Shown here: positions 6,066-29,820 of the stretch, piece by piece | Numbering within the stretch: the first letter of the stretch is position 1 | Layout: every line of letters begins with the position of its first letter | NCBI RefSeq assembly: GCF_913055835.1 | Contig: NZ_CAJXKQ010000010.1 | Coordinates: 1-64,000 of the forward strand | Reading direction: 5' to 3' | DNA: 64,000 bases | Source of the DNA: an uncultured Marinobacter sp. | GTDB taxonomy: Bacteria > Pseudomonadota > Gammaproteobacteria > Pseudomonadales > Oleiphilaceae | Notes under the pieces: generated by a model | Database searches by the model: none | What the model was told of the DNA's origin: nothing | The model's input: the letters and a program-made list of their open reading frames with translations, nothing else | Made by a program: the position numbers and the translations under genes

Positions 6066-6121
6066 AATCCGGAAGTCCGCACGGAACGCGGGCGTCCCTG
6101 AAACAGAGTCAGGAGCAGAAA

Positions 6122-6646
6122 ATGGCACGAGGCGTAAACAAGGTAATTCTCATCGGCAATCTGGGGCAGGACCCGGATACCCGCTACACCCCTAACGGCA
6201 ACGCCGTAGTAAACCTGAATCTGGCAACAGACGAAAGCTACAAGGATCGTCAGACCGGCCAACTGGTGCCGAAAACCGAATGGCATCGGGTTGTCATGTT
6301 CGGCAAGATCGCTGAAGTAGCAGGGCAGTATCTGCGCAAGGGTTCCAAGGTTTACATCGAAGGAAAATTGCAGACCCGTAAATGGCAGAACAAGGAAGGT
6401 CAGGACGTCTATACCACCGAAGTTGTGGTGGATATCAATGGCCAGATGCAGATGCTTGACAGCCGTGGCGGCGAAGGCGGTATGAGTCAGGGCGCACCGG
6501 CGGGGCGGCCTCAGCAGTCTGGCTATAATGCGCCGGCGGGACAACAGAACAATCCGCCGCCTCAATCGGGTGGTTACAGCAATCAACCTTCGCAAGGCAG
6601 TATGCCAGAGCCAGTTGACGATTTTGACGACGACATCCCGTTCTAG
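6122..6646 (+). CDS. ssb: Single-stranded DNA-binding protein
   Basis: 174-residue SSB. Residues 1-110 form the OB fold ([19 protein letters not shown]...). Residues 115-165 are a Gly/Gln/Pro-rich linker. The C-terminal acidic tip DDFDDDIPF is the docking peptide for replication and repair partners. The ATG at 6122 has caggag upstream and gives the standard N-terminus. It is the last core gene before the island; its terminator follows at once. Confidence 0.97.
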
Positions 6647-6665: not shown

Positions 6666-6676
6666 GTAACGTTTTA
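6666..6676 (+). repeat. Candidate left end repeat (attL-like) of the island
   Basis: The word gtaacgtttta occurs here, 20 bases after the ssb stop, and again at 29606-29616 near the other end of the foreign segment. The shorter gtaacgtttt occurs at 19799 and inverted at 29654. More copies of gttacg/cgtaac lie nearby at 6742 and 6791. It is a plausible crossover or recombinase-binding site, but the exact junction is not proven. Confidence 0.4.
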
Positions 6677-13367: not shown

Positions 13368-13399
13368 GTCCAGAAATGTTATTATATTTCTGAACACGT
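13368..13399. promoter_or_regulatory. Candidate res subsite overlapping the resolvase promoter
   Basis: The inverted repeat cagaaat (13371-13377) with atttctg (13386-13392) extends outward to gtcc and gaacac, so both half-sites match the pair at 13271-13299. It ends 10 bases before the resolvase ATG. Resolvase bound here would also repress its own gene. Confidence 0.45.
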
Positions 13400-13409
13400 G
13401 AGGGATTTT

Positions 13410-13991
13410 ATGACAGGTAAACATGTAGGTTATATTCGGGTCTCCTCTATCAGTCAAAACACTGATCGCCAACTTGATGGAGTAGCGCTTGATAAGGTTT
13501 TCACAGAGAAAATGTCTGGCAAAAGTGCTGGATCGCGAGAGGTTTTAAGCTCGTGTTTGGACTACTTGCGGGAGCATGACACTTTGCATGTTCACAGCAT
13601 CGATAGACTGGCGCGAAATATGACTGACCTGCTCTCAATTGTGGACGATCTGATCCATAGAGATGTGGCGGTGAGGTTTCATTCAGAGAATTTGACCTTT
13701 TCACCAGAAACTAACGATCCCATGGCTTCACTGATGTTGCATATGCTTGGCGCCTTCGCTGAGTTCGAACGCAAGCTTATCGGTCAGCGTCGCAGAGAAG
13801 GTGTTGAGGCGGCTAGAAAGCGTGGCAAGCAAATTGGAAGGCCGAAAGCGCTATCGAAAGATGACCTGGATAATATTCGTCGGAGAATTGCGGCTGGGGA
13901 ATTTAAACGCGATTTGGCGGAGGAGTATGGAGTATCCCGTACAACCTTGTACGCGGCTTTGAATGCATCCTGGCACGACTCAACCCATTAG
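13410..13991 (+). CDS. Serine site-specific recombinase (resolvase/invertase family)
   Basis: 193 residues from ATG 13410, which has gaggg upstream. The N-terminal catalytic domain contains YIRVS with nucleophile Ser12, the DTLHVHSIDRLARN region and the long E helix around MLGAFAEFERKLIGQRR. The C-terminal helix-turn-helix starts at GRPKAL and includes EEYGVSRTTLY. The small size fits Tn3-type resolvases and Pin/Hin invertases rather than large serine integrases. No Tn3 transposase is nearby, so it may resolve island multimers or be a remnant of another element. Candidate res subsites precede it. Confidence 0.9.
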   Translation: MTGKHVGYIRVSSISQNTDRQLDGVALDKVFTEKMSGKSAGSREVLSSCLDYLREHDTLHVHSIDRLARNMTDLLSIVDDLIHRDVAVRFHSENLTFSPETNDPMASLMLHMLGAFAEFERKLIGQRRREGVEAARKRGKQIGRPKALSKDDLDNIRRRIAAGEFKRDLAEEYGVSRTTLYAALNASWHDSTH

Positions 13992-14195: not shown

Positions 14196-17100
14196 ATGAT
14201 TAATTACGCAAAAATTAATGCTTTTGAGGAAGGGCAGCGGTCTTCGTTTGAAGAATTGGTTTGTCAGTTGGCCAGGCATGAGGAATTCCCTGATGGGTCG
14301 ATCTATCGAAGGGTTGATGGGGCCGGTGGTGATGGTGGTGTTGAAGCATACTGGGAGAAGCCTAATGGCCGGAAAACCGGATACCAGGCAAAGTTCTTTT
14401 TGCGTTCAAGAGATGTTGATTGGGGGCAAATTGATGAGTCAGTTAACCAAGCGCTGCGATGTCACCCAGAGCTAGAACTCTATGTGGTTGCTATCCCATG
14501 CGACCTTACAGATCGAACTGGCCCTAAGGGCAAAGGTGGCACTGGTTGGGAGCGCTGGAAGGACCGTGTCGCGAAATGGAAAGCTAAAGCCGTTGAAGCT
14601 GGAATTTCAGGTATCGAGTTTGCTGTTTGGACTAGCATCGAGATTTCCGGTCGGCTGATCCAAAGTGATGCGGCGGGTCTAAGAGAGTACTTCTTTGGAG
14701 AGGTACAGTTAGGTCTGGATTGGTTTGCTTCTTCGCTTGATGAATCGATAGCTTCTCTGGATGAAAGATTTCATCCAGAGGACCATGTTGATGTTCGTAC
14801 TGAAAAGCTTTTCCCCGTGATGTCGCGCTCGCCAACCGTTAAAGAAGAGCTATTGCTTGCGCTTGGAGCTGTTAAGCCTTGGCCCTACCCCCATAAAGTT
14901 CCCGAGAGCCTAGTTTCCGGCGATCTTTGGAAAGCAATTGACGGACTCAATAAATCAGTAAATGAGTTGGCAGCTGTCAGGGAACTAATTAATGTTGATC
15001 CACAGCACCGTTGGGATGTGGGCCTTTGGCAAGAATTGGCGATAAAAGTACAAGATAAAGTTCGTATTCTCCAGGAAATGTACCTTGCAGCAGAACACAG
15101 CCTAAGCGAGGACTCCTCCGCTGAAAAGTATGAGCTGAGAGGTTTAACCGAAAAGACGTGGAAGTTCAATGATGCGCTGATGTCGCTAATGAAGCTGCTT
15201 GAATCGCGGTTCATGGTCGCAGAGAAAAGTGCTTTTGCCTTGATTAACGGTAGCGCGGGCTCGGGGAAAAGTCATTTGCTCGCGAAGTGCGCTGAAGATG
15301 CGATCGAGCAAGGTCGCCCGGCGACCATGATATTGGGACAACACCTAAATAGTGATGAGCTCTGGTCTCAAATAGCGAAGATTTTGGGGCTGCCAGATAG
15401 ATCGGCCGATGAGATTCTTGGGGCTTTGGATGCTGCGGGGAAACGTGCAGGTGTCCGTACTCTTTTGTTGATCGACGCTATTAACGAAGGTGTGGGCAGT
15501 AAATACTGGAGAGAGAGCCTGCCGCGATTGATAAAGAAAGTACAGGGGTATAGTCATGTAGCTCTGGTGATTTCGTGCCGAGCTGAATATTTTGAGCTCG
15601 CGCTTCCTGAGTCTATCAGAAGTAATTATCCCATTTTTAAAGTTAAAGGCTTTGAAACCCAGGAAGAACAGTCGAATGCGGCTAGGGTGTATCTTGATAA
15701 GAGGGGAATAGCAAGACCGAGCACTCCTTGGCTTTCTCCAGAGTTTATCAATCCCTTATTTTTGAGGTCCATTTGCACTGCCCTAGAGCACGAAGGTAAA
15801 TCTGAGCTGCCACCAGGCCTAACTGGGACAAAAAGCATGCTCAGCTTTTACCTGAAAGGGATAGGATCTGCCATAACGCACAAAGAAGAAAGTACGAGCT
15901 CATATGCGCCGAAGCTTGGTCGGGCGGTTCTAGAGATCGCGGGCAAGATGGTGGAGCGAAGGTCTGATTTTCTCGATTTGGATACATGTCGCGACATAGT
16001 TTCCCGTCACTTCCAGAATGTACAACCGAGAACTGAGCCGGACTGGCTTTCAGTTTTCATTAACAACGGGGTTCTTCGAAAGGATCCTAATCCAATAATA
16101 GATGCTTTCGTGGATGAAGAGGTTGTTCGCTTTAGTTTTCAAAGGTTTCAAGATTTTCTAATGGCTGAAAAGCTACTCGAGGGAGTAACCGACCCTAGTG
16201 GCTTATTTGAGGAATCCGGAGCCCTTTGCTTTTGTCTTGAGGATGGCCGGCTTGCTTGGCAGTGGGTTGGGCTTATCGACGCCTTGACGACGCTTTTCCC
16301 TGAGGTTTTAAGGACAGAGTTAATTGACGTGTTGCCTGGAAACTTCAGCGATTGGTGGTCTAATTGGGGTGTGCAAGAAGCCTTCGTATCGAGTATCAAG
16401 TGGCGAGATCGTAGGGCTTTCAGTGAACGTACACTTCAGCTCCTCAATAAACTACCTAGCCAAGATTCATTAGACTTGCTGCTTGAAGTCGCGGTTGCTT
16501 TAGACCACCCATACAACGCCGAGCTCCTGCATCGGAACCTTGCAAGGCTCAATCTTCCCGACAGAGATGCTTTTTGGACTTCTTCAATAAACTCTCAAGA
16601 TGAAGAAGGCAGCAATGTTTTTGTGCTGATTGAATGGTGTCTACGGGGGCAAACGGAACGCACTAGCGCGGAAAATCAGTATCTTGCTAGCTTGGTTCTG
16701 TGTTGGCTCTTTACATCCTCCAACAGAGTGATTAGGGACAAAGCTACGAAGGCTCTGGCAAATGTTCTGATCAGCAGTAGTGACATTTTCCCGAAGTTGC
16801 TTGAAAAGTTTGAGGGTGTTGACGACCGATATGTGCTTGAGCGTCTGATTGCCGCTGGATACAGTGCTTGCTGTCTTGATCCTGCCCCAAGCCGACTTGA
16901 GGATTACTCCGAGCGAGTTTTCGATATTATCTTTAGGGATGGATCCCCGCCATACGGAATACTGCTCCGGGATTATGCTCTTGGTATTATTGAGTTGGCA
17001 GATTATCGCTCCAGTTTGCCGACCGCTGTTGACCTCCCGCTCTGCAAGCCTCCATACAAATCACCCAAAATTAGGTTGTCCGTGTCAGAGGCCCAACTCG

Positions 17101-18704
17101 CGAAGGTCGCAAAGCGAGCTGGAGGAGACGAGATCCTGGAATCGACGACGGGATTCATGGGGGATTTCGCAAAGTATGAGGTAGAGCCTCGTGTGCGCGA
17201 ATTCTTGCGTTTTCCTCTCACAAAGCCCGCTCCTCTTACAGGTGAGCAGAAAATAAGAAAGTTTGTGCGCGATGTGATCGGTACAGACTCAGCTAAATCG
17301 TCGGCTTTCGACCATCTAAGAAATAGTACGAGCCCCCTGTCTTCAGGTTTTTGTTCAATAGAAATGATTATGAAGGGGTGGGAGCCAACAGATAAGCAGA
17401 TTGCTGAGTGGGATGCGAGTCTTAGGCGTGCGCGACAAGATCTCTTAGATCTTTTGTCGACGGAAGAAAAGAAACGATTTAATAAAGAAATCTGGCCCCA
17501 TCTTCGCCCGAATCGAAAGGAAAGCAGAGAATACTTGGGCCTTGATTTGGCAGCTGCCAAGCGATGGATCGCAAAAGGTGCATATAGTTATGGATGGACG
17601 TCCCGGCGATTTAGAAACGATCGATATGTGGGCAGTTACTCTCGAGAGAGGTCGCTTACAGAGAGAATTGGTAAGAAATATCAATGGCTAGCTCTCGATG
17701 AGTTTTTGTCGAGGGTTGCTGATAATTACTGGATGACTGGCGAGTTTAGGGATCAGCCTAGGATATATGACGGCCCACTAGATTTGGGGTATGAACGCGA
17801 TATTGACCCAACGATTCTCGCTGAGCATCAAAGCCGTGAACAAATATGCCAAAGGAAAGCCGCATGGGAGTTGGGAGAAGATTTTGACTTGCCTGATGTT
17901 GCTGAAGCTAATCTGAGTTTATGGCCATTTGAGCGAAACCCTGGTGATTCGTTAAAACAACTTCCCATTAGGACTGATCCAGAGGGTGTTGAGTGGCTGG
18001 TTCTCAATGAATACCGGTCATTGTCTGAAAAGTATCCTGAAGGTGTTGTTCGGGAACATGGCTTGAGGATGGAGGAGTTTAGGTTTTTCTCCACAGTTAT
18101 GGTTCACAAATGTAATGCAGCCAGATCAGCGCGCCTCCTGGAAAAGAGACAGTTTGGTAGTGGGCTTGATTGGTGTTGCGATAGTTATGTAGACACTGCG
18201 TATTTGGGCGAGGCGCCTTGGCGTAAATCTTGGAGCCAAGAGAAATGGCAGTGCGATAGTTGGAGGCTGGAAGAGGACTTTCGGTATGCACAGTTAGCAG
18301 TGCGATATGCTTGGGAGTCTCACTTGGATGCCTCTATGCCTGAAGGGTGGGAGTGTCATATCCCATCCCCTTGGCTCGCGCATGAACTCAAGCTTGTATC
18401 GGATAAAAACGAAAGTGGGGTTTGGCGAGACGAGAGCGGTGAGGTGGTATTTCTCAGTTTTTTAGATGAACGACCTTTATCCATCAGCATGCTACGAATG
18501 GACAGCGTTGAGAAGATCATGGGCTCTGAATACACGTTCTTAAGTGCGATGATAGCAGAAAGACGCGCGTGGCCGGGCGGATCTAACGCAAGTGCGACTT
18601 GGCGGAGAGTTGAGGGTGTCTGTTGGCAAGATGGGCGAGGATTGCGTGACCGTCATTGGGTCCAAGACAGCGTCAAAGACAGATCTTATACGGACATGTG
18701 TTAG
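14196..18704 (+). CDS. Avs-like STAND NTPase with N-terminal PD-(D/E)XK nuclease
   Basis: A 1502-residue cytoplasmic protein. Residues 1-150 look like an Mrr-type nuclease: a helix with E19/E20, then the D46-GGVE segment and Q64-A-K66 (the Q-x-K variant of the PD-(D/E)XK active site). Residues about 320-620 form a P-loop NTPase with Walker A GSAGSGKS (352-359) and Walker B LLLIDAIN (423-430), as in STAND ATPases. The remaining 900 residues are alpha-helical without obvious signature and would be the sensor. This order matches Avs (AVAST) anti-phage sensors, which bind phage proteins, oligomerise and activate the nuclease. The Avs class cannot be set by eye. It stands alone in its own transcription unit. 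Confidence 0.75.
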   Translation: MINYAKINAFEEGQRSSFEELVCQLARHEEFPDGSIYRRVDGAGGDGGVEAYWEKPNGRKTGYQAKFFLRSRDVDWGQIDESVNQALRCHPELELYVVAIPCDLTDRTGPKGKGGTGWERWKDRVAKWKAKAVEAGISGIEFAVWTSIEISGRLIQSDAAGLREYFFGEVQLGLDWFASSLDESIASLDERFHPEDHVDVRTEKLFPVMSRSPTVKEELLLALGAVKPWPYPHKVPESLVSGDLWKAIDGLNKSVNELAAVRELINVDPQHRWDVGLWQELAIKVQDKVRILQEMYLAAEHSLSEDSSAEKYELRGLTEKTWKFNDALMSLMKLLESRFMVAEKSAFALINGSAGSGKSHLLAKCAEDAIEQGRPATMILGQHLNSDELWSQIAKILGLPDRSADEILGALDAAGKRAGVRTLLLIDAINEGVGSKYWRESLPRLIKKVQGYSHVALVISCRAEYFELALPESIRSNYPIFKVKGFETQEEQSNAARVYLDKRGIARPSTPWLSPEFINPLFLRSICTALEHEGKSELPPGLTGTKSMLSFYLKGIGSAITHKEESTSSYAPKLGRAVLEIAGKMVERRSDFLDLDTCRDIVSRHFQNVQPRTEPDWLSVFINNGVLRKDPNPIIDAFVDEEVVRFSFQRFQDFLMAEKLLEGVTDPSGLFEESGALCFCLEDGRLAWQWVGLIDALTTLFPEVLRTELIDVLPGNFSDWWSNWGVQEAFVSSIKWRDRRAFSERTLQLLNKLPSQDSLDLLLEVAVALDHPYNAELLHRNLARLNLPDRDAFWTSSINSQDEEGSNVFVLIEWCLRGQTERTSAENQYLASLVLCWLFTSSNRVIRDKATKALANVLISSSDIFPKLLEKFEGVDDRYVLERLIAAGYSACCLDPAPSRLEDYSERVFDIIFRDGSPPYGILLRDYALGIIELADYRSSLPTAVDLPLCKPPYKSPKIRLSVSEAQLAKVAKRAGGDEILESTTGFMGDFAKYEVEPRVREFLRFPLTKPAPLTGEQKIRKFVRDVIGTDSAKSSAFDHLRNSTSPLSSGFCSIEMIMKGWEPTDKQIAEWDASLRRARQDLLDLLSTEEKKRFNKEIWPHLRPNRKESREYLGLDLAAAKRWIAKGAYSYGWTSRRFRNDRYVGSYSRERSLTERIGKKYQWLALDEFLSRVADNYWMTGEFRDQPRIYDGPLDLGYERDIDPTILAEHQSREQICQRKAAWELGEDFDLPDVAEANLSLWPFERNPGDSLKQLPIRTDPEGVEWLVLNEYRSLSEKYPEGVVREHGLRMEEFRFFSTVMVHKCNAARSARLLEKRQFGSGLDWCCDSYVDTAYLGEAPWRKSWSQEKWQCDSWRLEEDFRYAQLAVRYAWESHLDASMPEGWECHIPSPWLAHELKLVSDKNESGVWRDESGEVVFLSFLDERPLSISMLRMDSVEKIMGSEYTFLSAMIAERRAWPGGSNASATWRRVEGVCWQDGRGLRDRHWVQDSVKDRSYTDMC

Positions 18705-18844: not shown

Positions 18845-19492
18845 CTATGTAGCGCAGATGTCGATTGTGATTGGTGGATTTATCGGTCGATAGAAGCGGT
18901 CACAGGTGCTCGCATTTACAAAAATTACTCCATCGTGTTCTCGAACTCCCGATCCGTACGATTCATGAATGTGCCCGCAGATATGAGCTTTGAGCTTGCT
19001 GAGCTGCTCTATTCTTCTGGCTAACGGAAAGCAGCCTACATGCTCTGCATCTCGAGGTACGTAATCGAGAACACGCCACGCCGGCCCGTGAGTTATCAAA
19101 ATGCTCGTTGAATCTGGGATCCGGGATCGTCGCATGAACATCTCTGTTTCGTCAGCATTAAACGCCATTTGCCTGTACGCTGGAGTCCATGGTGACCCAA
19201 AAAATTCCAGCCCATCGATAGTCCATGTCTCATCTTGAAGATAAACAACTCCGTTCGTTTCGCATATTTCGCGAGATGTGGTGGGATCCTTTTCGAAACT
19301 GGAGTCATGATTCCCGGCAATCAGTACTTTGTGTCTGTGGGGGAGCAAGCCAAACCAGTGAGCGAAATCACTGAGAGCGGCCAGGGATCCGTCACTGGTG
19401 CAATCTCCAGCGTGGACAACCACATCTCCGTCGGGGACAGGAGGCATTTCATTATGTCGGCTGTGCGTGTCGGAAATGCAAACGATTTGCAT
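18845..19492 (-). CDS. Calcineurin-like metallophosphoesterase
   Basis: 215 residues from the ATG at 19492, chosen because agga lies six bases upstream and the protein then starts right at the first metal-binding motif; a longer frame to 19693 lacks similarity. Dinuclear metal motifs are all present: D8-x-H10 (ISDTHS), GD30, GNHD, a further THG and GHIHE near the C-terminus. This is the small single-domain class that includes cytosolic phosphodiesterases. The substrate is unknown. It lies inside the island on the opposite strand to the other cargo and could be nucleic-acid or nucleotide directed, but nothing in the sequence decides this. Confidence 0.85.
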   Translation of the reverse strand: MQIVCISDTHSRHNEMPPVPDGDVVVHAGDCTSDGSLAALSDFAHWFGLLPHRHKVLIAGNHDSSFEKDPTTSREICETNGVVYLQDETWTIDGLEFFGSPWTPAYRQMAFNADETEMFMRRSRIPDSTSILITHGPAWRVLDYVPRDAEHVGCFPLARRIEQLSKLKAHICGHIHESYGSGVREHDGVIFVNASTCDRFYRPINPPITIDICAT

Positions 19493-20191
19493 ATGTAGTC
19501 CTGGGGAACGCTTTAGAGCCCTTATATTATGCCCAGCCCCCTCGTCAGTCCAAGCATGATCTTTAGCTTCTGTAATTAGATCTGCGCCTGCAATGGATGA
19601 CATCGCTAACCCATTAATTCCCCTCGGTTTAGCTTCTCTAAAGCACCGTACGTTTAAATGATAAAAGTTGTTTTTTACCCTATTAGGGTTCATGGATGGT
19701 AGCCAGTTCGCCCTGATTGTTAAGAGTGTCGGATCTTCGTTGTTGTGATCTACAGTCTAGCCTGAAATTTCCGGGTGAAATTTCCCGCTTTTATCGTTGT
19801 AACGTTTTGTTTTAAAACGCTTTTGTTTGAATTTTGATTTTTTATTAATTACTTGGTCGGAATTTTGGGAAGCTTTGGTGGTGAGGGGGCTAGGTTTCTT
19901 TACCCAACGCCCCCCTTTTGAATTGGCAGTGAGGCAACGCCGCCACCCCGTAAGGCACCTTAGTACTTTTGACCGCTCTATCGATGGCTGTCCCGGATTC
20001 TGCGATCGATCGGTGCGAGGTCAAAGTCTAAGCGTCACAATCGATCGCAATCATGGCTGGGGTTGAGTGCTTCCGCGAATCAGGCCCTTTAAGGCTCGGC
20101 TAGACCTAAATGATCGAAGCCCGAACTGCCCTCAGTTTGTGCATTCCGCAATTTTCCCATATTCTCTCAATTCTCTAGGGTGGGGAAAGCA
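19493..20191. other. Non-coding gap of 699 bases inside the island
   Basis: No convincing gene. It contains a near-duplicate gaaatttccgg/gaaatttcccg around 19761-19785, the island-end word gtaacgtttt at 19799, an AT-rich stretch (19800-19850), and cgatcgatcg/cgatcgca words near 20000-20050. It presumably holds the promoters of the phosphoesterase (leftward) and of the restriction operon (rightward). Confidence 0.5.
19799..19808 (+). repeat. Internal copy of the island-end word
   Basis: gtaacgtttt here matches 6666-6675 and 29606-29615. It is followed by ttttaaaacg, making a local dyad. It may mark a junction between two separately acquired segments. Confidence 0.35.
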
Positions 20192-20374
20192 ATGGCTGAG
20201 CAAATATTAACCATCAAGGAGGTTGCTGACTTCCTTAAGCTGACGGAGAAAACGGCTTATCGCCTAGCGGCAGAGGGCAAGTTGCCAGGCTTCAAAGTCG
20301 GAGGGAGCTGGCGTTTTAAGCAATCTGATCTTGACGCCTGGATTGAGGAAAGCAAAACCGAACAAAAGAAATAG
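20192..20374 (+). CDS. Small helix-turn-helix (excisionase/MerR-like) regulator
   Basis: 60 residues from ATG 20192 with gggg six bases upstream; a GTG at 20180 would add four residues. The sequence ILTIKEVADFLKLTEKTAYRL is the classic excisionase-family winged HTH. It continues with KLPGFKVGGSWRF and ends in a basic tail. It is the first gene of a five-gene operon, 11 bases ahead of the helicase. Such proteins occur both as phage excisionases and as control proteins of restriction loci; the operon position favours a regulator. It could also serve island excision. Confidence 0.85.
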   Translation: MAEQILTIKEVADFLKLTEKTAYRLAAEGKLPGFKVGGSWRFKQSDLDAWIEESKTEQKK

Positions 20375-20385
20375 GAACGCAGACG

Positions 20386-23300
20386 ATGCTGTTAGATAAC
20401 AAAAATAGCGGCTATGTGGGCGCGGAACTTAAGGCTCATTCATTTGAAGGCTCGAAACTATCTATTCTGTCTGCGCTGTTCACGCTTTATGGCTTTTCCT
20501 CCTTCAAGACAGAACTCTCGAAACTGTCAGGCGTTCGTTTGTTGCTCACTGGGTGGCCGCATTCGAGTCTGCAATCTCTTATTGGCTCTAACAACGAGCT
20601 ACGGCTGATTAACAAGCTCGACCAGAAACGAATTGCACAGGAATGCGTGAAATGGCTTTCTGGCGGTGTCGAGGTCAGGGCTTCTGAAGGCCTTAACCAG
20701 AGTAATCAAAACCTGTTTCATCTCCACAACCCGGAGAGAGCGGATTTCGCAGTTCATGGCAGTGCTACATTTAGCCCGGTAGGGTTAGGCGAATTGCAGT
20801 CTGACCGCTTTCAGATGAACACCGGCATCAGTGAACCGGAAACAAGCAGGCAGCTACTCGACTGGTTTGACGCGATCTGGGCGGATGAATCAGCGGTAAA
20901 GGACATTAAGGCCGATTTGATCCAGCAACTGGATTTCATCGCAGCTGATCAACCTGCAAACTTCATATACTTCCTGACGCTCTACAACATCTTCAAAGAC
21001 TTCCTCGAAGAGATTGATGAAGAAAACATCATCAAGAGCAAAACCGGGTTTAAGGATACAGCTGTCTGGAACAAGCTTTACAAGTTTCAGAAAGACGGCG
21101 TTCTGGGCGCTATCGACAAGCTAGAAAAGCATAACGGCTGCATCATCGCTGATAGTGTTGGTCTCGGTAAGACGTTCGAAGCCCTCGCCGTTATCAAGTA
21201 CTACGAGCTTCGCAACGACCGCGTCTTAGTGCTTTGTCCGAAGAAACTGCGCGACAACTGGACAATGTACACAATCAATGACAAGCGGAACCTGCTCGCT
21301 GGCGACCGGTTTAACTACGATGTACTGAATCATACTGATCTGAGTCGTGTGAAAGGATATTCGGGCGAAATTAATCTTGAAACCCTAAATTGGGGAAATT
21401 ACGACCTAATCGTTATCGACGAGTCGCATAATTTCAGGAACAACCCGAACAAGTCAGATGGTAAAACCCGTTATGAGCGCCTGCTCGATGACATCATCCG
21501 ATCCGGCGTGAAAACCAAAGTTCTGATGCTGTCAGCAACCCCGGTGAATAACCGGATGAATGATCTCAAAAATCAAATTGCTTTCATTACGGAAGGTCAG
21601 GACGATGCCTTTCAGGATGTCGGTATCAAGAATATTGAAAGCACGCTGCGTCTTGCTCAGCGCCAGTTTAACGCGTGGCTTAATGAGCCAGCTGAAAACC
21701 GCACAACAGCAACGTTACTGGACAGCATGAGCTTTGATTACTTCAAACTGCTAGATGTGGTGACGATTGCACGTTCGCGTAAGCATATCGAGAAATACTA
21801 CGGTACATCTGACATCGGAAAATTCCCGATAAGGTTGAAACCGGTCAATATTTACGCGGATATTGATCTTTCCAACGAGTTCCCGCCTCTGAAAGAGGTT
21901 AACAAGACCATCCGCCGCTTATCACTGGCCGGTTATTCGCCGCTGAAATTTGTTCGAAACGACAAGAAGGAAGAGTATGCGCGCCGGTACGACAAGGCCG
22001 TCGGTGGGGGTAAGGGAGTCTTCAAGCAGATTGACCGTGAAGAAAGTTTGATCCACTTGATGCGGGTAAACTTGCTGAAACGTATGGAAAGCTCCATCCA
22101 GTCATTCTCGCTGACAGTAGAAAAGCTGTTTGCTCAGGTTGATGCGCTACTCAACAAAATTGAAGAACACGAGCAAAGTGACGTCGACGCTCTGAATATC
22201 GAAGATATTCAGGACATTGAGATGGACGCGCCGGAGTTCGAACCTTTCCTGATCGGGAATAAGACGAAAATCCTTCTACAGGATATGGACCTGATCCGCT
22301 TTAGGCAGGAGCTGGAAGCGGATCGGATATTGCTGGAAAGTATTCTTGGGGACGCCCAAAAAGTCTCAGTCGAAAGAGATGCCAAGCTTTCTCAGCTTGA
22401 GACGACGATTGCAAGCAAAGCGAAGAATTCTATAAATCCAGGCAACAAAAAAATCATTATCTTTACAGCCTTTGCGGATACCGCTCAGTATCTGTACGCC
22501 CATTTATCTGGTTGGGCGTCGAGAGAACTGGGCATGCATAGCGCCTTGATAACTGGAACGGGAACTAACAAGTCAACAATTACAGGGCTTGGGTCGGACT
22601 TAAACAACCTTCTGGCGGCTTTCTCACCGGTATCAAAAGAGCGTGCCAAGATCGACCCCGATGCAACGCACGAAATCGATCTTCTCATCGCGACGGACTG
22701 TATCAGTGAAGGGCAGAATCTTCAGGATTGCGATACTCTCATCAACTATGACATCCATTGGAATCCCGTGCGCATTATTCAGCGGTTTGGGCGCATCGAC
22801 AGGCTCGGATCAAAAAATGCCCAGATCCAGCTAATCAATTTCTGGCCGAACATGGAGCTCGATGAGTACATCAACCTAGAGGCCCGGGTTTCTGGGAGGA
22901 TGGTTCTGCTCGATATTTCTGCGACCGGCGAAGAGAATGTCATTGACGAAAACGCCCAAGAGATGAACGACCTCGAATACCGGCGCAACCAGTTGCAGCA
23001 GCTACAGGATACGGTTGTTGATCTGGAAGACATGACCGGCGGCGTCTCTATTACGGATTTAACACTTAACGATTTCCGAATGGACTTGTCGGAGTACCTC
23101 AAAAGTAACAAGACGAGTATCCAGAGATCGCCGCTCGGGCTTTTCGCTGCAATTAAGCTGGATCCAGAGTTAAAAGCGGACGGTTTTGAGCCCGGCGTGA
23201 TCTTCTGTCTGAAGAACATTGGGGCAGGTCGCGATGCCGTTCAGGTTGATGATAACTATCCCTTGGCACCATACTTTCTGGTTTATGTCTCGGATGACGC

Positions 23301-23601
23301 AGAGATTCGACTTAACTTTACCCAGAGTAAGAAAGTTCTTGACTTGATGAAACGTCAGGCGTTCTTGGCCGAAGGTATAGACGATACTGCGGCCAAGGAG
23401 TTCAGCTCGGTCACGAAAAATGGAGCGAACATGGAGCACTACCAGCATTTGCTGGCTGTAGCCGTGGATAGCATTGCCGGGAAGAGTGAAGAAAAAGGAG
23501 TGCAAAGCTTGTTTGCCAGAGGTGGAACTGTGCTGACAGCAACCAGTAGCCAGGGAATAGAAGACTTCTCAGTCGTTTCTTATCTCGTTCTTCTCGATTA
23601 G
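20386..23601 (+). CDS. SNF2-type helicase with degenerate PLD-like N-terminal domain
   Basis: 1071 residues. The N-terminal 140 residues resemble a phospholipase-D-like domain, ending in HGSATFSPVGLG near residue 130, but the expected H-x-K active-site lysine is not evident. The superfamily 2 helicase core has DSVGLGKT (256-263), DESH (345-348), SATPVNNR and motif VI QRFGRIDRLG (799-808), with a long helical insert about 530-690. The C-terminal 200 residues are of unknown fold. It should be an ATP-driven DNA translocase. It lies between the HTH gene and DUF4391 in a restriction operon, with gaps of 11-12 bases, so it is probably part of the same defence system. Confidence 0.85.
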   Translation: MLLDNKNSGYVGAELKAHSFEGSKLSILSALFTLYGFSSFKTELSKLSGVRLLLTGWPHSSLQSLIGSNNELRLINKLDQKRIAQECVKWLSGGVEVRASEGLNQSNQNLFHLHNPERADFAVHGSATFSPVGLGELQSDRFQMNTGISEPETSRQLLDWFDAIWADESAVKDIKADLIQQLDFIAADQPANFIYFLTLYNIFKDFLEEIDEENIIKSKTGFKDTAVWNKLYKFQKDGVLGAIDKLEKHNGCIIADSVGLGKTFEALAVIKYYELRNDRVLVLCPKKLRDNWTMYTINDKRNLLAGDRFNYDVLNHTDLSRVKGYSGEINLETLNWGNYDLIVIDESHNFRNNPNKSDGKTRYERLLDDIIRSGVKTKVLMLSATPVNNRMNDLKNQIAFITEGQDDAFQDVGIKNIESTLRLAQRQFNAWLNEPAENRTTATLLDSMSFDYFKLLDVVTIARSRKHIEKYYGTSDIGKFPIRLKPVNIYADIDLSNEFPPLKEVNKTIRRLSLAGYSPLKFVRNDKKEEYARRYDKAVGGGKGVFKQIDREESLIHLMRVNLLKRMESSIQSFSLTVEKLFAQVDALLNKIEEHEQSDVDALNIEDIQDIEMDAPEFEPFLIGNKTKILLQDMDLIRFRQELEADRILLESILGDAQKVSVERDAKLSQLETTIASKAKNSINPGNKKIIIFTAFADTAQYLYAHLSGWASRELGMHSALITGTGTNKSTITGLGSDLNNLLAAFSPVSKERAKIDPDATHEIDLLIATDCISEGQNLQDCDTLINYDIHWNPVRIIQRFGRIDRLGSKNAQIQLINFWPNMELDEYINLEARVSGRMVLLDISATGEENVIDENAQEMNDLEYRRNQLQQLQDTVVDLEDMTGGVSITDLTLNDFRMDLSEYLKSNKTSIQRSPLGLFAAIKLDPELKADGFEPGVIFCLKNIGAGRDAVQVDDNYPLAPYFLVYVSDDAEIRLNFTQSKKVLDLMKRQAFLAEGIDDTAAKEFSSVTKNGANMEHYQHLLAVAVDSIAGKSEEKGVQSLFARGGTVLTATSSQGIEDFSVVSYLVLLD

Positions 23602-23613
23602 TTAGGGTAAGAA

Positions 23614-24396
23614 ATGGATATTCGCAGCCTCGAAGACTTTCTTGATAGCTTACGTGTTCCTGAGTCCTGTCAACTCAACAAGCCGGTCTACAAGAAAATG
23701 TTCCTTGATATGGGAGCATTGGATGCCACGGATAAAGCCTGCCTCAAGAATGACGTGAGCAAAATTCGTTGGCTCTACACCTTCAAGCCGGCGACGATCA
23801 ATATTCCGGCGTATAAGGACGCAGAACGAGAATATGATGAGGTCGCCGTCCTGTTGGTTGATCTCAACAGCCCAAAACGGATGAAGCGCGTTTCGAGCTT
23901 CATACAGCGCTCGATCCCGTATCCAGTAGTGGTGATCTTCTCTTACGCCATGGCGGGCCAAGACAGCATTGCTGTTGCTGTTTCTGATAAGCGAATCAAT
24001 CAAGCTGACAAAGAGAAGTGGGTGGTTGAGGATTCCGTCTTCACGGACTGGATAGATCTCCAGGCACAGTCAAAGGAGGAGGCTGCCTTTCTGCGCAGTC
24101 TGGCTATCAATAACCTTTCCTATAAAAATTTTTGGGATTTCTACAGGTCGTTCACCGAGCGCGTTATAGCCGTAAACTGCGCAGAACATACTGGCTCGTT
24201 CGGCTTAGATCGTGCTGAGAAGGCGGATCAGGTTGATCGACTCGTACAGCTTAAAGAACTAGAACGGTTAGAGGCTAGCAAAGCAGAGCTCGCGAATAAG
24301 CTGAAGAAAGAAAAGCAGATGAGGCGTCAGATTGACCTCAACACAAAAATTAAACTGATTAAAGACCAAATATCGGCCATCAAGGGCCGCCTTTGA
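23614..24396 (+). CDS. DUF4391 family protein
   Basis: 260 residues. The pattern from residue 18 (CQLNKPVYKKMF, then DKACLKNDVSKIRWLYTFKPATINI) followed by EVAVLLVDL fits DUF4391, a family of unknown activity that is often a neighbour of type III restriction genes. The C-terminal 60 residues are a strong coiled coil rich in Lys, Glu and Leu. It has no membrane segment. Placed 12 bases after the helicase and 34 bases before mod, it is most likely a structural or regulatory subunit of this system. Confidence 0.8.
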   Translation: MDIRSLEDFLDSLRVPESCQLNKPVYKKMFLDMGALDATDKACLKNDVSKIRWLYTFKPATINIPAYKDAEREYDEVAVLLVDLNSPKRMKRVSSFIQRSIPYPVVVIFSYAMAGQDSIAVAVSDKRINQADKEKWVVEDSVFTDWIDLQAQSKEEAAFLRSLAINNLSYKNFWDFYRSFTERVIAVNCAEHTGSFGLDRAEKADQVDRLVQLKELERLEASKAELANKLKKEKQMRRQIDLNTKIKLIKDQISAIKGRL

Positions 24397-24430
24397 TTCA
24401 ATCGAATTTCCGCGCATAGAAGGTAGTTGT

Positions 24431-26443
24431 ATGGACCAAGTGAAACTTGAGGATGGACAAAGTCTGGATTTGGTTTCAGAGAACATTGAAAAGCTAAAGG
24501 AGCTTTTTCCTGAGGCATTCTCTGAAGGTAGAGTGAATTTCGAGACCTTGCGCCAGTTACTTGGTGACTACACGGTCCTGGATGAAGGCGAAGAGAAATA
24601 TGGTCTTAATTGGCACGGAAAGAAGAAAGCTCGGCAAATCGCATTAACACCGTCAGCCGGTACATTATTGCCATGTCCGGAAGAAAGCGTGGAGTGGGAT
24701 GAAACAAAAAATTTGTTTATAGAGGGTGATAATCTTGAAGTGCTTAAGCTTATCCAGAAAGGCTATGCAAACAAGATAAAGATGATCTATATAGATCCAC
24801 CCTACAATAAGGAAAAAGACTTCATATATCCGGATAGGTTTCAGGATGATTTGACCACTTACCTTAGATATACGGGGCAGGTGGATGACGAAGGTCTAAA
24901 GGTTTCGTCAAATACTGAGGTTTCCGGAAGAAAGCATACTCAATGGCTTAATATGATGTATCCGCGCCTCAAGTTAGCTAAATCTTTATTGAAAAAAGAT
25001 GGCGCGATTTTTGTTTCCATTGATGACAATGAAGTAGTAGGTCTTCGGGCTATTTGTGACGAAATATTTGGTGAGGAAAATTTTGTTGCCCAAATTGTTT
25101 GGCAGAAGTCGAAAAAAGGAGACTCAAAGCTGGTTGCTATCGTACATGAGTACATTCTTTGTTATGCAAAGGATAAGTCACAGGCGATAGAGTCAGGTGT
25201 TTGGAGAACTCGAAAAGATGGTGTTGATGAGGTCCTAGAAAAATATCAGTCGCTCCGTGAAAAATATAAAGACGACCACCTCAAAATTCGAGGAGAAATG
25301 ATGACTTGGTATCGGAGTCTAAAGGATTCCGATCCTAGAAAAAACCATAAACACTACAACTGGTCCGATGATAGAGGATTATATTTTCCCGACAACTTTG
25401 CGGGGCCAGATGATGGTCGAGAAAGCAGGCCAAGACATAATATTATTCATCCAATAACAGGTAAGCCTTGCAAAAAACCTTCAACGGGCTGGCGATGGGA
25501 TGAGACAAAGACTGAGTGGGCCTTATCTCAGGAACCGCCAAGAATCCATTTTGGTGAAGATGAAAAAACTATTCCAAATAGGAAAAGTTATTTAAAAGAA
25601 ACAGCGTTGGAGCCGTTTAGTTCAAACTTTTACCAAGATGGCAGAACGGCGACCCTGCAAGTTGAAAGGCTTCTTGGGGAAGGAGTTTTTCAATTTCCAA
25701 AAAATACGTCTGTCTTAGCGAAACTTATTAATCTGGTAACTAAAGATGACGATGTAATTCTGGATTTTTTTGCAGGTTCAGGATCTACCGCCCATGCTTG
25801 CCTTGAGCTGAACCATGAAGAGGAATCTTCACGGAGATTCATTCTGGTACAGCTGCCGGAGCCTTTAGATGGCAGCAAAAAGGAGCAGAAAGCGGCCTAT
25901 CAGTACTGTGTCGATAGTGGCGTGCCAGTGAATATTGCTGAAGTGAGTAAAGCAAGAATTAAGAAAGCAGGAGAGGAGATAAGAGAGAGAAATCCAAGTA
26001 CTCAATTGGATTCTGGATTTAAAGTCTTCAAGCTTTCAAGTTCAAATGTTCAGGCGTGGAGTCCTGATCTTGCGGACCTTGAAAGCAGCCTACTTTCTTA
26101 TGAGGAGCATCTGGTTAAGGGTCGAACCGAACAGGATATTCTGTACGAGTTACTCCTGAAGCGCGGCGTAGACTTGGCAGTTCCCATTGAGAGTCGCGAG
26201 GTAGGAGGAAAGAACATCTACTCCGTCGGCTTTGGTGTTCTATTCGCTTGTCTTGACGAGTCTATAAATCGTGATCAAGTAGAAGATATAGCGCAGGAAA
26301 TTTTAGGTTGGCAGGCTGAACTCTCTCCGAGCTCCGAGACTCACGTGTTTTTCCGAGACAGCGCTTTTGAAGATGACGTTTCCAAAACCAACATGGCAGC
26401 GATTCTTGAGCAGAATGGCATCAGCCATGTGCGCAGCTTGTGA
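24431..26443 (+). CDS. Type III restriction-modification methyltransferase (Mod)
   Basis: 670-residue beta-class N6-adenine or N4-cytosine DNA methyltransferase. The catalytic motif DPPY is at 122-125 and the S-adenosylmethionine motif DFFAGSGSTAH at 445-455. Between them is the target-recognition region (about 200-420). That is the motif order of type III Mod proteins, which protect host DNA and specify the site for Res. aagg lies seven bases before the ATG. The central region is strikingly AT-rich compared with the ends of the gene and with its neighbours, suggesting exchange of the recognition domain. Next to res with an 11-base gap. Confidence 0.93.
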   Translation: MDQVKLEDGQSLDLVSENIEKLKELFPEAFSEGRVNFETLRQLLGDYTVLDEGEEKYGLNWHGKKKARQIALTPSAGTLLPCPEESVEWDETKNLFIEGDNLEVLKLIQKGYANKIKMIYIDPPYNKEKDFIYPDRFQDDLTTYLRYTGQVDDEGLKVSSNTEVSGRKHTQWLNMMYPRLKLAKSLLKKDGAIFVSIDDNEVVGLRAICDEIFGEENFVAQIVWQKSKKGDSKLVAIVHEYILCYAKDKSQAIESGVWRTRKDGVDEVLEKYQSLREKYKDDHLKIRGEMMTWYRSLKDSDPRKNHKHYNWSDDRGLYFPDNFAGPDDGRESRPRHNIIHPITGKPCKKPSTGWRWDETKTEWALSQEPPRIHFGEDEKTIPNRKSYLKETALEPFSSNFYQDGRTATLQVERLLGEGVFQFPKNTSVLAKLINLVTKDDDVILDFFAGSGSTAHACLELNHEEESSRRFILVQLPEPLDGSKKEQKAAYQYCVDSGVPVNIAEVSKARIKKAGEEIRERNPSTQLDSGFKVFKLSSSNVQAWSPDLADLESSLLSYEEHLVKGRTEQDILYELLLKRGVDLAVPIESREVGGKNIYSVGFGVLFACLDESINRDQVEDIAQEILGWQAELSPSSETHVFFRDSAFEDDVSKTNMAAILEQNGISHVRSL

Positions 26444-26454
26444 GGGGTTAGTAT

Positions 26455-29400
26455 ATGAAGCTGCACTTTGAAGACGATTTAGATTACCAGAAATCTGCTA
26501 TCGAATCGGTAGTGGGCCTGTTTAAGGGGCAGGAAATTTCACGCTCCGAGTTTACGGTGACGTATCAGCCTGAATCGGGGCCGCAAACAACATTGGCTTT
26601 CGACGAAAATTCCCTTGGTATCGGCAATCGCTTAAAGCTGATTGATGACGAAATCCTGGAGAACCTCAAGGGAATCCAGCTTGCAAATGGGCTTCGCCCG
26701 TCGGAAAGCCTGACAAGTGGCGACTTTACGGTCGAGATGGAAACGGGGACCGGTAAGACCTACGTCTATCTCCGTACAATTTTTGAACTCAACAAGAATT
26801 ATGGCTTTACCAAATTTGTAATTGTCGTGCCCTCGGTTGCGATCAAGGAGGGCGTTTATAAGACCCTGCAAATTACTCAAGATCATTTTGAAGGCCTCTA
26901 CCCAAAAGCAAAGGGTTACGAGTACTTCCAGTACAACTCATCGAAACTGGGGCAGGTGCGCAACTTTGCGACCAGCTCGAATATCCAGATCATGATCACT
27001 ACCGTCGGGGCCATTAACAAGAAAGACGTCAACAACCTCTACAAAGAGAATGAGAACACAGGTGGCGAGAAGCCAATTGATCTGGTTCGTGCAACGAACC
27101 CCATCATTATTGTGGACGAGCCCCAAAGTGTTGATGGAGGCTTGACCGGGAAGGGGAAAGAAGCTCTTTCCGCTATGAACCCGCTCTGTACGCTGCGCTA
27201 TTCGGCTACTCATATTGATAAGCACCACATGACGTATCGCCTTGATGCGGTGGATGCTTATGAGCGCGGTTTGGTGAAACAGATCGAAGTCGCCTCGCTC
27301 GAAATCGACGGCGGGCATAACAAAGCCTATGTTCGGCTTGTCTCCACCCACAACCGGAAAGGATCGATAACGGCCAAGATCGAGATTGATGTTCAGCGTG
27401 GTAAGAATATCCGCCGTGAAATCCTGACGGTGGAGGACGGTGACGACCTGGAGCAGATCGCTAATCGGGCTATCTATGAAGATATTCAGATAGGAACGAT
27501 TACTTGTGGCAAAGACAATGAATCCATCGAGGTTAAGGGTAATGGCTTTGATGCGGTCCTGAAGCCTGGAGAGGCGATTGGTGGCGTTGATCCGGATGCA
27601 GTGAAGCGCATGATGATCCGCCGGACAATCAAGGAGCATTTGGACAAAGAGTTGACCTTCGCGGCCAATAATCAGCCCATCAAGGTTCTCAGCCTTTTCT
27701 TCATTGATAGCGTTGAGCATTACAGGCAATACGATGAGGATGGTAGGCCTGTGAAGGCAAAATACGCCAAGATGTTCGAAGAAGAATATCGGAAACTGGC
27801 AAAGTCAGCTGACTACCAAAGCCTCTTCGGCGAAATCGACCTCGATACGGATGCGGAAGAAGTTCACGAAGGCTACTTTTCGATCGATAAGAAAGGAAAG
27901 TCTGTCGATACGGCGGAAAACAATCAGGCTAACAGAGACAACGCCGAGCGTGCCTATAACCTGATTATGAAGGATAAGGAAAAGCTCCTTTCCTTCGACA
28001 CCAAGTTGAAGTTCATCTTCTCGCACTCAGCGCTGAAGGAAGGGTGGGATAACCCCAATGTCTTCCAAATATGCTCTCTTCGTGAGATGGGTAGTGAGCG
28101 GGAAAGAAGGCAGACTTTGGGACGCGGCTTGCGACTTTGTGTCAACCAGAAGGGCCAGCGACTTCGCGGGAACGATATCAATACACTGACGGTCATCGCG
28201 ACCGAAAACTACGAACAGTATGCCGAAAACCTCCAAAAGGAGATTGAGGAGGATACTGGCATTCGTTTTGGTATTGTCGAGCAACACCAATTTGCCACGA
28301 TCCAGACGGTAGATGATAACGGCCAGGTCGGCAATCTCGGCGTAGAGCAATCCGAGAAGATATGGAAATTCCTGAAAGAAGAAGGTTTTGTCGATGCCAA
28401 GGGCAAGGTCCAAGACAGCTTACGGGCAGCCATTAAAGACAAAACTTTCGCGCTGCCGGAGGAAATCAAGCATGAGCTGGCCGATCAGCACGGTGATGAA
28501 CAAGCTGAGGCTATTGCTGTAGATGTGCAAGCTGTGCTTCGTAAACTCGCGGGTAAACTGGATATCAAAAATGCCGATGATCGGCGTGTTATCCGGACTC
28601 GGGAAGCTGTCCTTCAGAGTGAGGAATTCAAGGCACTCTGGGGGCGAATCAAGTATAAGACAACCTATCGAGTCGACTTCGATAACAACAAGCTCATTGC
28701 CGATTGCGCGGAGGCCATTCGTGACTGCCCTCCTATAACGAAAACGCGAGCGCAGTTCCGGAAGGCGGATATCGCAATAGGGAAGGGCGGCGTCACAGCA
28801 GGCGAGACATCCACCTCTGGCTATACAACTGTCCATGAGGACGATATCGAGCTGCCAGACATCATTACTGATTTGCAGGACAAGACTCAGCTCACTCGCA
28901 AGAGCATTGTTCAAATTCTTCGCGATTCAATGCGGCTGGAAGACTTCAAACGGAATCCTCAACAGTTCATCGACTATTGTTCGGAAGCCATCAATCGAAC
29001 CAAGCGCCTGGCCCTGGTTGAAGGCATTAAGTATCGTAAGGTCGGTGATGAGCACTTCTATGCTCAGGAATTGTTCGAGCAGGAGGAGCTGAAAGGCTAT
29101 CTCAAGAACACGCTAGAAACTCAGAAGTCTGTCTATACTCATGTTGTATATGATTCAGCAGGTGTGGAGAGAGTCTTCGCCGAGGACCTGGAAAAGAATG
29201 AGAGGGTAAAGGTCTACGCCAAGCTGCCGTCTTGGTTCAAGGTGCCAACCCCGCTTGGAACCTACAATCCAGACTGGGCAGTTGTGGTCGATGATGAAGG
29301 CGATGAGAAGTTGTACTTTGTAGTGGAAACCAAAGGTAGTACTTGGTGGGGAGATTTGCGCCACGCAGAAGGTGCAAAGATCAAGTGCGGCGAAAAGCAC

Positions 29401-29487
29401 TTCGAGGAAATTGCTTCAGGCGTCGATCAGCCGGCGAGATATATAAAGGCTACTGATGTCGACGGAATGATGGGGCACGTATCCTGA
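26455..29487 (+). CDS. Type III restriction enzyme subunit (Res)
   Basis: 1010 residues. Superfamily 2 translocase with Walker A ETGTGKT (96-102), DEPQ (221-224) and motif VI TLGRGLRLC. The C-terminal PD-(D/E)XK nuclease has PDWAVV (D940) and VETKG (E958, K960). With Mod it forms a complex that scans from unmethylated sites and cuts foreign DNA. All motifs are intact. It is the last gene of the five-gene operon. Length is in the usual range for the family (about 970-1050). Confidence 0.93.
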   Translation: MKLHFEDDLDYQKSAIESVVGLFKGQEISRSEFTVTYQPESGPQTTLAFDENSLGIGNRLKLIDDEILENLKGIQLANGLRPSESLTSGDFTVEMETGTGKTYVYLRTIFELNKNYGFTKFVIVVPSVAIKEGVYKTLQITQDHFEGLYPKAKGYEYFQYNSSKLGQVRNFATSSNIQIMITTVGAINKKDVNNLYKENENTGGEKPIDLVRATNPIIIVDEPQSVDGGLTGKGKEALSAMNPLCTLRYSATHIDKHHMTYRLDAVDAYERGLVKQIEVASLEIDGGHNKAYVRLVSTHNRKGSITAKIEIDVQRGKNIRREILTVEDGDDLEQIANRAIYEDIQIGTITCGKDNESIEVKGNGFDAVLKPGEAIGGVDPDAVKRMMIRRTIKEHLDKELTFAANNQPIKVLSLFFIDSVEHYRQYDEDGRPVKAKYAKMFEEEYRKLAKSADYQSLFGEIDLDTDAEEVHEGYFSIDKKGKSVDTAENNQANRDNAERAYNLIMKDKEKLLSFDTKLKFIFSHSALKEGWDNPNVFQICSLREMGSERERRQTLGRGLRLCVNQKGQRLRGNDINTLTVIATENYEQYAENLQKEIEEDTGIRFGIVEQHQFATIQTVDDNGQVGNLGVEQSEKIWKFLKEEGFVDAKGKVQDSLRAAIKDKTFALPEEIKHELADQHGDEQAEAIAVDVQAVLRKLAGKLDIKNADDRRVIRTREAVLQSEEFKALWGRIKYKTTYRVDFDNNKLIADCAEAIRDCPPITKTRAQFRKADIAIGKGGVTAGETSTSGYTTVHEDDIELPDIITDLQDKTQLTRKSIVQILRDSMRLEDFKRNPQQFIDYCSEAINRTKRLALVEGIKYRKVGDEHFYAQELFEQEELKGYLKNTLETQKSVYTHVVYDSAGVERVFAEDLEKNERVKVYAKLPSWFKVPTPLGTYNPDWAVVVDDEGDEKLYFVVETKGSTWWGDLRHAEGAKIKCGEKHFEEIASGVDQPARYIKATDVDGMMGHVS

Positions 29488-29616: not shown

Positions 29617-29820
29617 ACGTGAAATTCCGGCTAAAATCGATAAAATGTGACAGAAAACGTTACGAAGAGGTTTCTGGTTTATCGGTTGGGGTGCTTGAAA
29701 GCCCCTATTTGTGGGCAGCTTTGACTGTCTCTCTTGTTTTTCTTTGGCATCTTACTCCATACTACCATTCTAGATCTGAGTATCTGCGATCTGCAACGAA
29801 GTCAGATCAGGTTGATCTAT

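Follow-up and report, generated by a model that had tools for sequence, protein, structure and literature searches.

Why should the genes of a type III restriction enzyme share an operon with a second large helicase? As usually taught, a type III system has two genes. The question is raised by a 64,000-nucleotide stretch of DNA from an uncultured Marinobacter sp. (contig NZ_CAJXKQ010000010.1, positions 1 to 64,000; hereafter the window), in which mod and res are preceded by genes for a small helix-turn-helix (HTH) protein, an Snf2-family helicase and a DUF4391 protein. We propose, with a probability of roughly 60%, that a type III Mod-Res pair, the Snf2 motor and DUF4391 constitute a methylation-guided four-component restriction system. 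On the sequence evidence, this is a widespread variant of type III restriction and, as far as our searches reach, an undescribed one. The features of the operon are as follows (loci and genomes of the surveys below carry L and G numbers).

20192-20374, + strand: small HTH_17 (excisionase-like) protein, 60 amino acids (from the open reading frame and Pfam)
20386-23601, + strand: Snf2-family DNA motor protein with a degenerate N-terminal PLD domain, 1071 amino acids
20386-20910, + strand: the degenerate PLD domain of the helicase, approximately residues 1-175, with HxK lost
23614-24396, + strand: DUF4391 protein (alpha/beta domain and C-terminal helical hairpin), 260 amino acids (Pfam PF14335)
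24431-26443, + strand: Mod, type III beta-class adenine methyltransferase, 670 amino acids
24971-26050, + strand: variable segment of Mod, approximately residues 181-540, probable target recognition region (from the drop in identity to L040)
26455-29487, + strand: Res, type III restriction subunit with a superfamily 2 (SF2) helicase and a C-terminal PD-(D/E)xK nuclease, 1010 amino acids

A preliminary description of the window had claimed a five-gene operon at 20192-29487 with gaps of 11-34 bases, and this stands: all five open reading frames (ORFs) lie there on the + strand, separated by 11, 12, 34 and 11 bases, and the family scans agree. Between 19600 and 30100 there are 9 promoter-like sites (11.0 in shuffled sequences) and 16 terminator-like sites (10.8 in shuffles, standard deviation 3.6); as neither number is clearly above chance, we see no sign of the operon being broken up, and it contains none of the guest genes described below. 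The last two genes form a type III pair. They are adjacent within the single operon, the DPPY motif precedes FxGxG in Mod, as expected of the beta class, and Res combines an SF2 motor with a C-terminal PD-(D/E)xK domain. Mod scores 708 bits with the PADLOC model MTase_III, and Res scores 1244 bits with REase_III and 126 bits with Pfam RE_endonuc; the E-value of Res against EcoP15I Res is 1.4e-71. DPPY together with the F and the first G of motif I is constant in 113 Mod relatives scoring above 600 bits, as are GKT and DEPQ in 101 Res relatives scoring above 1100 bits; PD and ExK are constant in the 100 of these 101 that are readable there.

The case for a single system comes from the distribution of the four genes, scored by profiles made from the window proteins at loci with at least 9 kb of sequence downstream of the helicase. 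At these loci, mod and res nearly always accompany the helicase and DUF4391 genes, contrary to the refuting condition set in the preliminary description, a rare co-occurrence. From the genome contigs we kept the best 80 of at least 582 confirmed helicase relatives, i.e. those most like the window's; 52 of these loci have the necessary length, and DUF4391 is present in 52, Mod in 52 and Res in 50, with all genes in the order helicase-DUF4391-Mod-Res in 50 (the exceptions are L086 and L119). Viral contigs yielded 61 loci, 35 of them long enough and 32 with the complete set in order (exceptions L120, L156 and L159). The taxa with complete loci include Pseudomonadota, Bacillota, Bacteroidota, Chloroflexota, Nitrospinota, Verrucomicrobia and Candidatus Melainabacteria. 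A plasmid of the archaeon Methanomethylovorans carries the full four-gene set; the other archaeal locus, L086 from Methanobrevibacter, has no recognisable Res. The same order occurs on plasmids of Acinetobacter gerneri, Methanomethylovorans, Providencia, Paraburkholderia, Aeromonas, Lactococcus and Enterococcus, in some cases with extra genes in between, and in Acinetobacter johnsonii Res is in pieces. Under the settings used, the next most frequent gene cluster was found in at most 16 of 141 loci (L040-L180). A megablast search found no near-identical operon DNA in E. coli, a search of little weight. In one locus, L033, Mod and Res precede the helicase and DUF4391 on the same strand, so that the two halves can be rearranged. 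Ten viral contigs (L155, L156, L160, L161, L163-L166, L168 and L177) carry at least this helicase and have neighbouring genes in common, and for that reason one phage lineage may be using the system against other phages.

Surveys that started from DUF4391 gave the same result. Together with the helicase survey, they bear out the earlier claim of conserved extra subunits by the test proposed with it, a recurring gene order in distant phyla. In a class-level sample of 369 genomes, DUF4391 matches were found in 15 (13 of them over the cut-off) and helicase matches (E 1e-60) in 16; 14 genomes hold both (Fisher p 2e-22), two of them (G183 and G254) with the sister type introduced below. The unshared cases are G205, with a broken DUF4391 gene, and G196 and G329, whose helicase genes lie near contig ends. 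At the phylum level, 23 of 398 genomes matched DUF4391. We analysed 22 loci from 21 genomes, G000 and G323 having been covered before and one short match in G505 being left out; 14 loci carry all four genes, and seven are cut by contig ends and agree as far as they can be read. Among the genomes of the window's genus listed for this survey, DUF4391 is present in G525 and absent from G427 and G490. The helicase-DUF4391-Mod-Res arrangement is not a chance pile-up.

Covariation of the proteins points in the same direction. Distance matrices from 88 of 97 complete systems (near copies were dropped) gave partial rank correlations of 0.48 for helicase-Res, 0.46 for Mod-Res, 0.31 for DUF4391-Res, 0.21 for DUF4391-helicase, 0.20 for helicase-Mod and 0.13 for DUF4391-Mod, values that shared inheritance by itself could yield. 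Taken together, the sequences indicate that the four genes very probably act as one system. A machine larger than the two-gene type III enzyme is likely, given that this gene set returns in the same order in distant phyla.

Several observations weigh against this conclusion. The figure of 50 out of 52 applies to close relatives of the window helicase. In L312, the one phylum-level locus that disagrees, DUF4391 sits at the edge of a contig, and approximately 9 kb of sequence showed neither Mod nor Res. On plasmids, Res is broken in Desulforapulum (a 160-residue piece) and in Acetobacter (two pieces around an insertion sequence). The DUF4391-Mod correlation is the weakest of the six, contrary to a purely Mod-docking role of DUF4391, and the Pfam DUF4391 model gives three sister-type fusions 21-23 bits, short of the required 29.9, and misses a fourth (L260). 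Finally, Mod-Res pairs do exist alone. We looked in the reverse direction at 18 Res loci of the class without an adjacent DUF4391 match; none matched the DUF4391 profile and none carried this helicase, the helicase-profile match in L213 reaching 87 bits. L212, L215, L218 and L219 are cut by contig ends and are not informative, but L214, L222, L223 and L227 have room and contain Mod-Res without helicase and DUF4391. In L211, whose Res is 67% identical to that of the window, neither gene is found in 7.6 kb upstream and Mod is partial; EcoPI of phage P1 consists of two genes. Type III restriction as a whole therefore does not depend on the extra genes.

A tree of 39 Res proteins of the system (the window's and 38 of 73, chosen from 99 less near copies) and 19 others, including those from loci cut by contig ends, helps to place these exceptions. 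The system label changes eight times on this tree, compared with a mean of 16.2 after shuffling, and with midpoint rooting EcoPI falls outside. Given these label changes and the Mod-Res loci without the extra genes, the association is, as judged from the tree, a property of one type III lineage with some losses or exchanges and not of all type III systems.

What the two additional proteins may do can be approached from their sequences and models. The helicase has 'HKD+Snf2' (C3a139, 437 bits) as its best PADLOC model. Its AlphaFold2 model has a mean predicted local distance difference test score (pLDDT) of 79.5, lower than that of the DUF4391 model, and superimposes on Isw1 in VIA with Z 22.6 and a root-mean-square deviation of 4.0 over 415 residues. 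RapA is the best Foldseek match of the model (1e-15) and was matched by sequence too. Judged from the model, the motor is clearly of the Snf2 type. Among 157 aligned helicases, the Walker A motif GLGKT is constant and DESHN is constant except for one D replaced by E.

The N-terminal region is different. The preliminary description had called this protein a PLD helicase, a label that does not survive: the catalytic HxK is kept in only three of the 157 helicases (L038, L039 and L159, all of the sister type) and lost in 154, the window's included, and the Pfam scan found no PLD domain in the window protein. Of the 154, two keep H alone and three keep K alone; L060, in which HxK is five residues out of register, was scored as not intact. 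The loss of HxK in 154 of 157 led us to reject an active PLD nuclease in helicases of the window type. The region is nevertheless homologous to PLD, because relatives with an intact PLD domain align there, and Pfam PLDc_2 matches two of the sister-type helicases (6e-10 and 2e-8). Res lies within the fetched stretch for 114 of the 154 helicases without HxK. Two other Snf2 proteins tried as an outgroup for the helicase tree sat on branches of length 10 and left it without a usable root, so that the direction of change, presumably a loss of PLD activity, rests on plausibility.

The sister type is the rarer one and comprises four clear loci (L038, L039, L159 and L260) in which HxK...GSSN of the helicase is intact; their helicases form one clade (support of 100 in the approximate likelihood ratio test SH-aLRT). 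The helicase adjoins a DUF4391-like domain fused to a methylase domain of the Eco57I or N6 type. The profile derived from the window's DUF4391 matches all four fusions with 40-68 bits, and hhalign aligned the DUF4391 family with three of them with a probability of 93.7 and an E-value of 1.9e-7. A more distant fifth member, L330 on a Planktothrix plasmid, has an intact HAK...GSSN and a helicase-profile score of 580 bits; its N-terminal domain is alignable and has no DUF4391-profile match. No Res was found by profile in L159, L260 and L330, and the contigs of L038 and L039 end within the fusion, where Res cannot be judged. These loci suggest, tentatively, that the helicase and DUF4391 are a common chassis on which the parts for marking and for cutting were exchanged over evolutionary time. 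The motor of one type would bring its own PLD nuclease and work with a fusion of DUF4391 to an Eco57I/PglX-like methylase; in the other, to which the window belongs, PLD would be dead and a complete type III Mod-Res pair would have been taken up. If true, one mechanism, a motor-coupled methylation checkpoint with a swappable nuclease, would unite classical type III restriction with the BREX-related and DISARM-like families, and a share of the annotated type III systems would be four-subunit machines.

DUF4391 itself is recognized with ease (Pfam PF14335, 215 bits against a cut-off of 29.9) and is predicted confidently (pLDDT 95.9, predicted template modelling score 0.91) as an alpha/beta domain with a C-terminal helical hairpin. 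The fold search gave no match at E 0.001 or better (the best were 0.03 in the PDB and 0.004 among viral models), and among the VIA matches listed only the helical hairpin (residues 199-260) was covered; the alpha/beta part of the model is best described as lacking a named fold rather than as a proven new one. A degenerate PD-(D/E)xK nuclease was considered, since the aligned strand has ELK in three of the sister-type domains. The idea was dropped: the other two sister-type domains read DLT and TLD, and only 6 of 71 free DUF4391 proteins have an acidic residue and K at the two positions, contrary to such a nuclease. The family is unnamed in PADLOC (2023) and NCBIfam (2026), a viral scan with the DUF4391 protein as sole query found no match, and the only mention of DUF4391, PF14335 or pfam14335 seen in open-access literature is a table of Pfam domains by host class (Actinomyces). 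A gene in the DUF4391 position of phage phi1605 (L281, 12252-12965) is annotated as a methyl-accepting chemotaxis protein, and the DUF4391 protein of a Vibrio plasmid as 'chemotaxis protein'; the helical hairpin may be behind these annotations.

We envisage the following mechanism. Mod would mark an asymmetric site in host DNA, chosen by a swappable recognition region, and unmarked DNA would engage Mod-Res. DUF4391 could dock Mod, or Mod-Res, to the Snf2 protein, as suggested by the fusion of a DUF4391 relative to a methylase in the sister type; this coupling of motor and methylase is a possibility to which we give slightly less than an even chance. The Snf2 motor would then move on duplex DNA and load, displace or activate Res, whose PD-(D/E)xK domain would be the sole live nuclease visible in the core.

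The motor and DUF4391 might instead be control subunits that strip Mod-Res from host DNA or restrain it there, at hemimethylated forks or in a cell that has newly acquired the operon, rather than helping to cut phage DNA. The best Foldseek match of the motor, RapA, recycles RNA polymerase, and passages of PMC12707154 state that type III systems need control at establishment. EcoPI, however, works without such subunits, and the motor protein of the sister type retains a nuclease motif that looks intact, which argues for a role of this family in attack; we regard restraint as unlikely.

Somewhat less likely still is a tandem of two systems, in which the helicase and DUF4391 form a defence of their own beside an ordinary type III Mod-Res pair and act once restriction has been evaded; the preliminary description had offered this as one form of a distinct mechanism. 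Members of the helicase family and a DUF4391-like domain do occur with another methylase and no visible Res (L159 and L260), and the reversed order of the halves in L033 shows that they are separable. Yet the gene order is nearly fixed in close relatives, helicase and Res covary as strongly as Mod and Res, and the disappearance of HxK from 154 of 157 helicases in the Mod-Res setting leaves the pair without a visible effector. Of that earlier proposal, the larger machine remains likely, whereas a second tier made of the helicase and DUF4391 is not supported in that form, since no nuclease is visible in this pair.

Guest genes are the more plausible source of a second tier. A gap of more than 250 bases separates core genes in 58 of 112 complete systems, and in 49 (approximately 44%) it contains a co-directional ORF of at least 120 residues; where the longest gap ORF has at least 200 residues, it is co-directional in 52 systems and opposite in two (L105 and L148). 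Guest-bearing loci include L017, L025, L031, L132 and L175. In a hand-chosen set of 20 mostly long guests, Pfam recognized GmrSD in five (the commonest), PLD nucleases in two, both retaining HxK and GSxN, RhuM in two, and Bro-N, Schlafen, AAA-PDDEXK_9, DUF1016/YhcG, a UvrD-like protein and a winged helix in one each, five guests having no match. BREX is reported as a host of similar backup effectors in passages of PMC12839542. That the helicase and DUF4391 are themselves passengers, picked up from a defence island by an ordinary type III system, is very improbable: defence genes cluster, an Avs2 gene lies directly upstream and guests are frequent in such operons, but guests differ by locus, the helicase and DUF4391 do not, and the survey opposes this reading.

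The operon appears to move laterally as a unit while exchanging the recognition region of Mod. Its closest relative, L040 from Marinobacterium, is 93% identical in the HTH protein, 92% in Res, 89% in the helicase and 74% in DUF4391. DNA similarity to L040 spans 20137-29475 of the window, including the HTH gene, with a break within Mod and without reaching the fetched flanks. In steps of 60 residues, the identity of the two Mod proteins is 15-53% within residues ~181-540 and 77-100% outside; L049 and L017 have a similar pattern. We read this as an exchange of the recognition region, which the segment presumably represents by analogy with beta-class methylases.

The small HTH protein (Pfam HTH_17, 71 bits) is probably the regulator of the operon and would tune its expression. 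The gene claimed for this role is present but optional in relatives: where the sequence reached far enough upstream, it was found in 12 of 77 genome loci and in 17 of 59 viral loci. Its match to NCBIfam NF047737 MAD1 (84 bits, cut-off 80) in an operon that is not MADS could be an annotation pitfall or point to a regulator common to methylation-based defences.

The operon lies in a stretch of low G+C content (approximately 0.43-0.50, compared with 0.51-0.62 in the flanks). By eye, from the translations, this island extends over 6600-30015, with ssb (6062-6646) on one side and MSHA pilus genes (from 30013) on the other. Other features of the island are:

6811-8034: phage-integrase gene, confirmed by Pfam
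13398-13991: resolvase, confirmed by Pfam
14196-18704: Avs2-like STAND defence gene (PADLOC Avs2, 1806 bits), directly upstream of the operon
18845-19693, minus strand: calcineurin-like phosphoesterase, between Avs2 and the operon

The Avs2-like protein reaches 733 where the NCBIfam Avs2 model requires 1000, which makes it a divergent Avs2. Two large ORFs, 7946-9589 and 9592-11742 (the latter without a Pfam match), look recombinase-like by eye. The sequence GTAACGTTTTA occurs at 6666 and 29606, with an inverse copy near 29654; these copies are possible recombination sites.

We found no description of the helicase-DUF4391-Mod-Res combination in the open-access literature, which is no proof of novelty, and it is absent from the passages seen of PMC12839542, PMC10853773, PMC12458937, PMC10059834, PMC2292703, PMC12707154 and PMC7784981. 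A PADLOC scan would name just Mod, Res, the HTH protein (as MAD1) and, through C3a139, the helicase. The large lineage described here includes bacteria and at least one archaeal plasmid and is found on chromosomes, plasmids and viral contigs; given this wide spread, it is probably old. On this analysis, some of the systems now classed as ordinary type III may be larger machines. The unnamed DUF4391 family is placed in a context, the loss of the nuclease motif from the motor has a testable explanation, and restriction-modification may be linked to the newer defences based on methylation.

Among these newer defences, MADS shares with the window operon the HTH protein that passes the MAD1 cut-off. 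None of the other MAD components was found among the five operon proteins, the sole trace being a 15-bit MAD8 match in Avs2. DrmD of class 1 DISARM is the top NCBIfam model of the helicase (160 bits), but the scores are well under the cut-offs (160 against 610 and 117 against 950), and the methylase of the window is a type III Mod. In the PADLOC scan, which covered the five operon proteins and Avs2, DrmA, DrmB and DrmC gave only cross-matches to the helicase, for which the best 25 of 47 families were considered. The components missing from the proteins scanned, the sub-cut-off DrmD scores and the lost HKD motif led us to reject membership in MADS, DISARM and the BREX-related systems alike.

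Passages of PMC12839542 describe, for the BREX-related type 2 (Hma-like) systems, an Snf2 helicase whose N-terminal HKD (PLD) domain is a nuclease, an adenine methylase beside it, a DUF499 ATPase, DUF3780 and in-operon backup nucleases such as GmrSD. The helicase with an N-terminal HKD region next to an adenine methylase and the GmrSD-type backup nucleases are features in common. The window type, however, no longer has the HKD motif, carries DUF4391 and has Mod-Res as its live module; the sister type stands nearer to these systems. Pfam found neither the DUF499 ATPase nor DUF3780 among the five operon proteins; farther neighbours in the relatives were covered as unnamed gene clusters. With the type III enzymes EcoPI and EcoP15I, the window system shares adjacent mod and res genes, beta-class motifs in Mod and a Res with an SF2 motor and PD-(D/E)xK nuclease. 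Its Res is 31% identical to that of EcoPI over 59% of the query, EcoPI lying elsewhere in the midpoint-rooted Res tree, and, unlike these enzymes, it adds two near-constant genes, those for the Snf2 motor and DUF4391.

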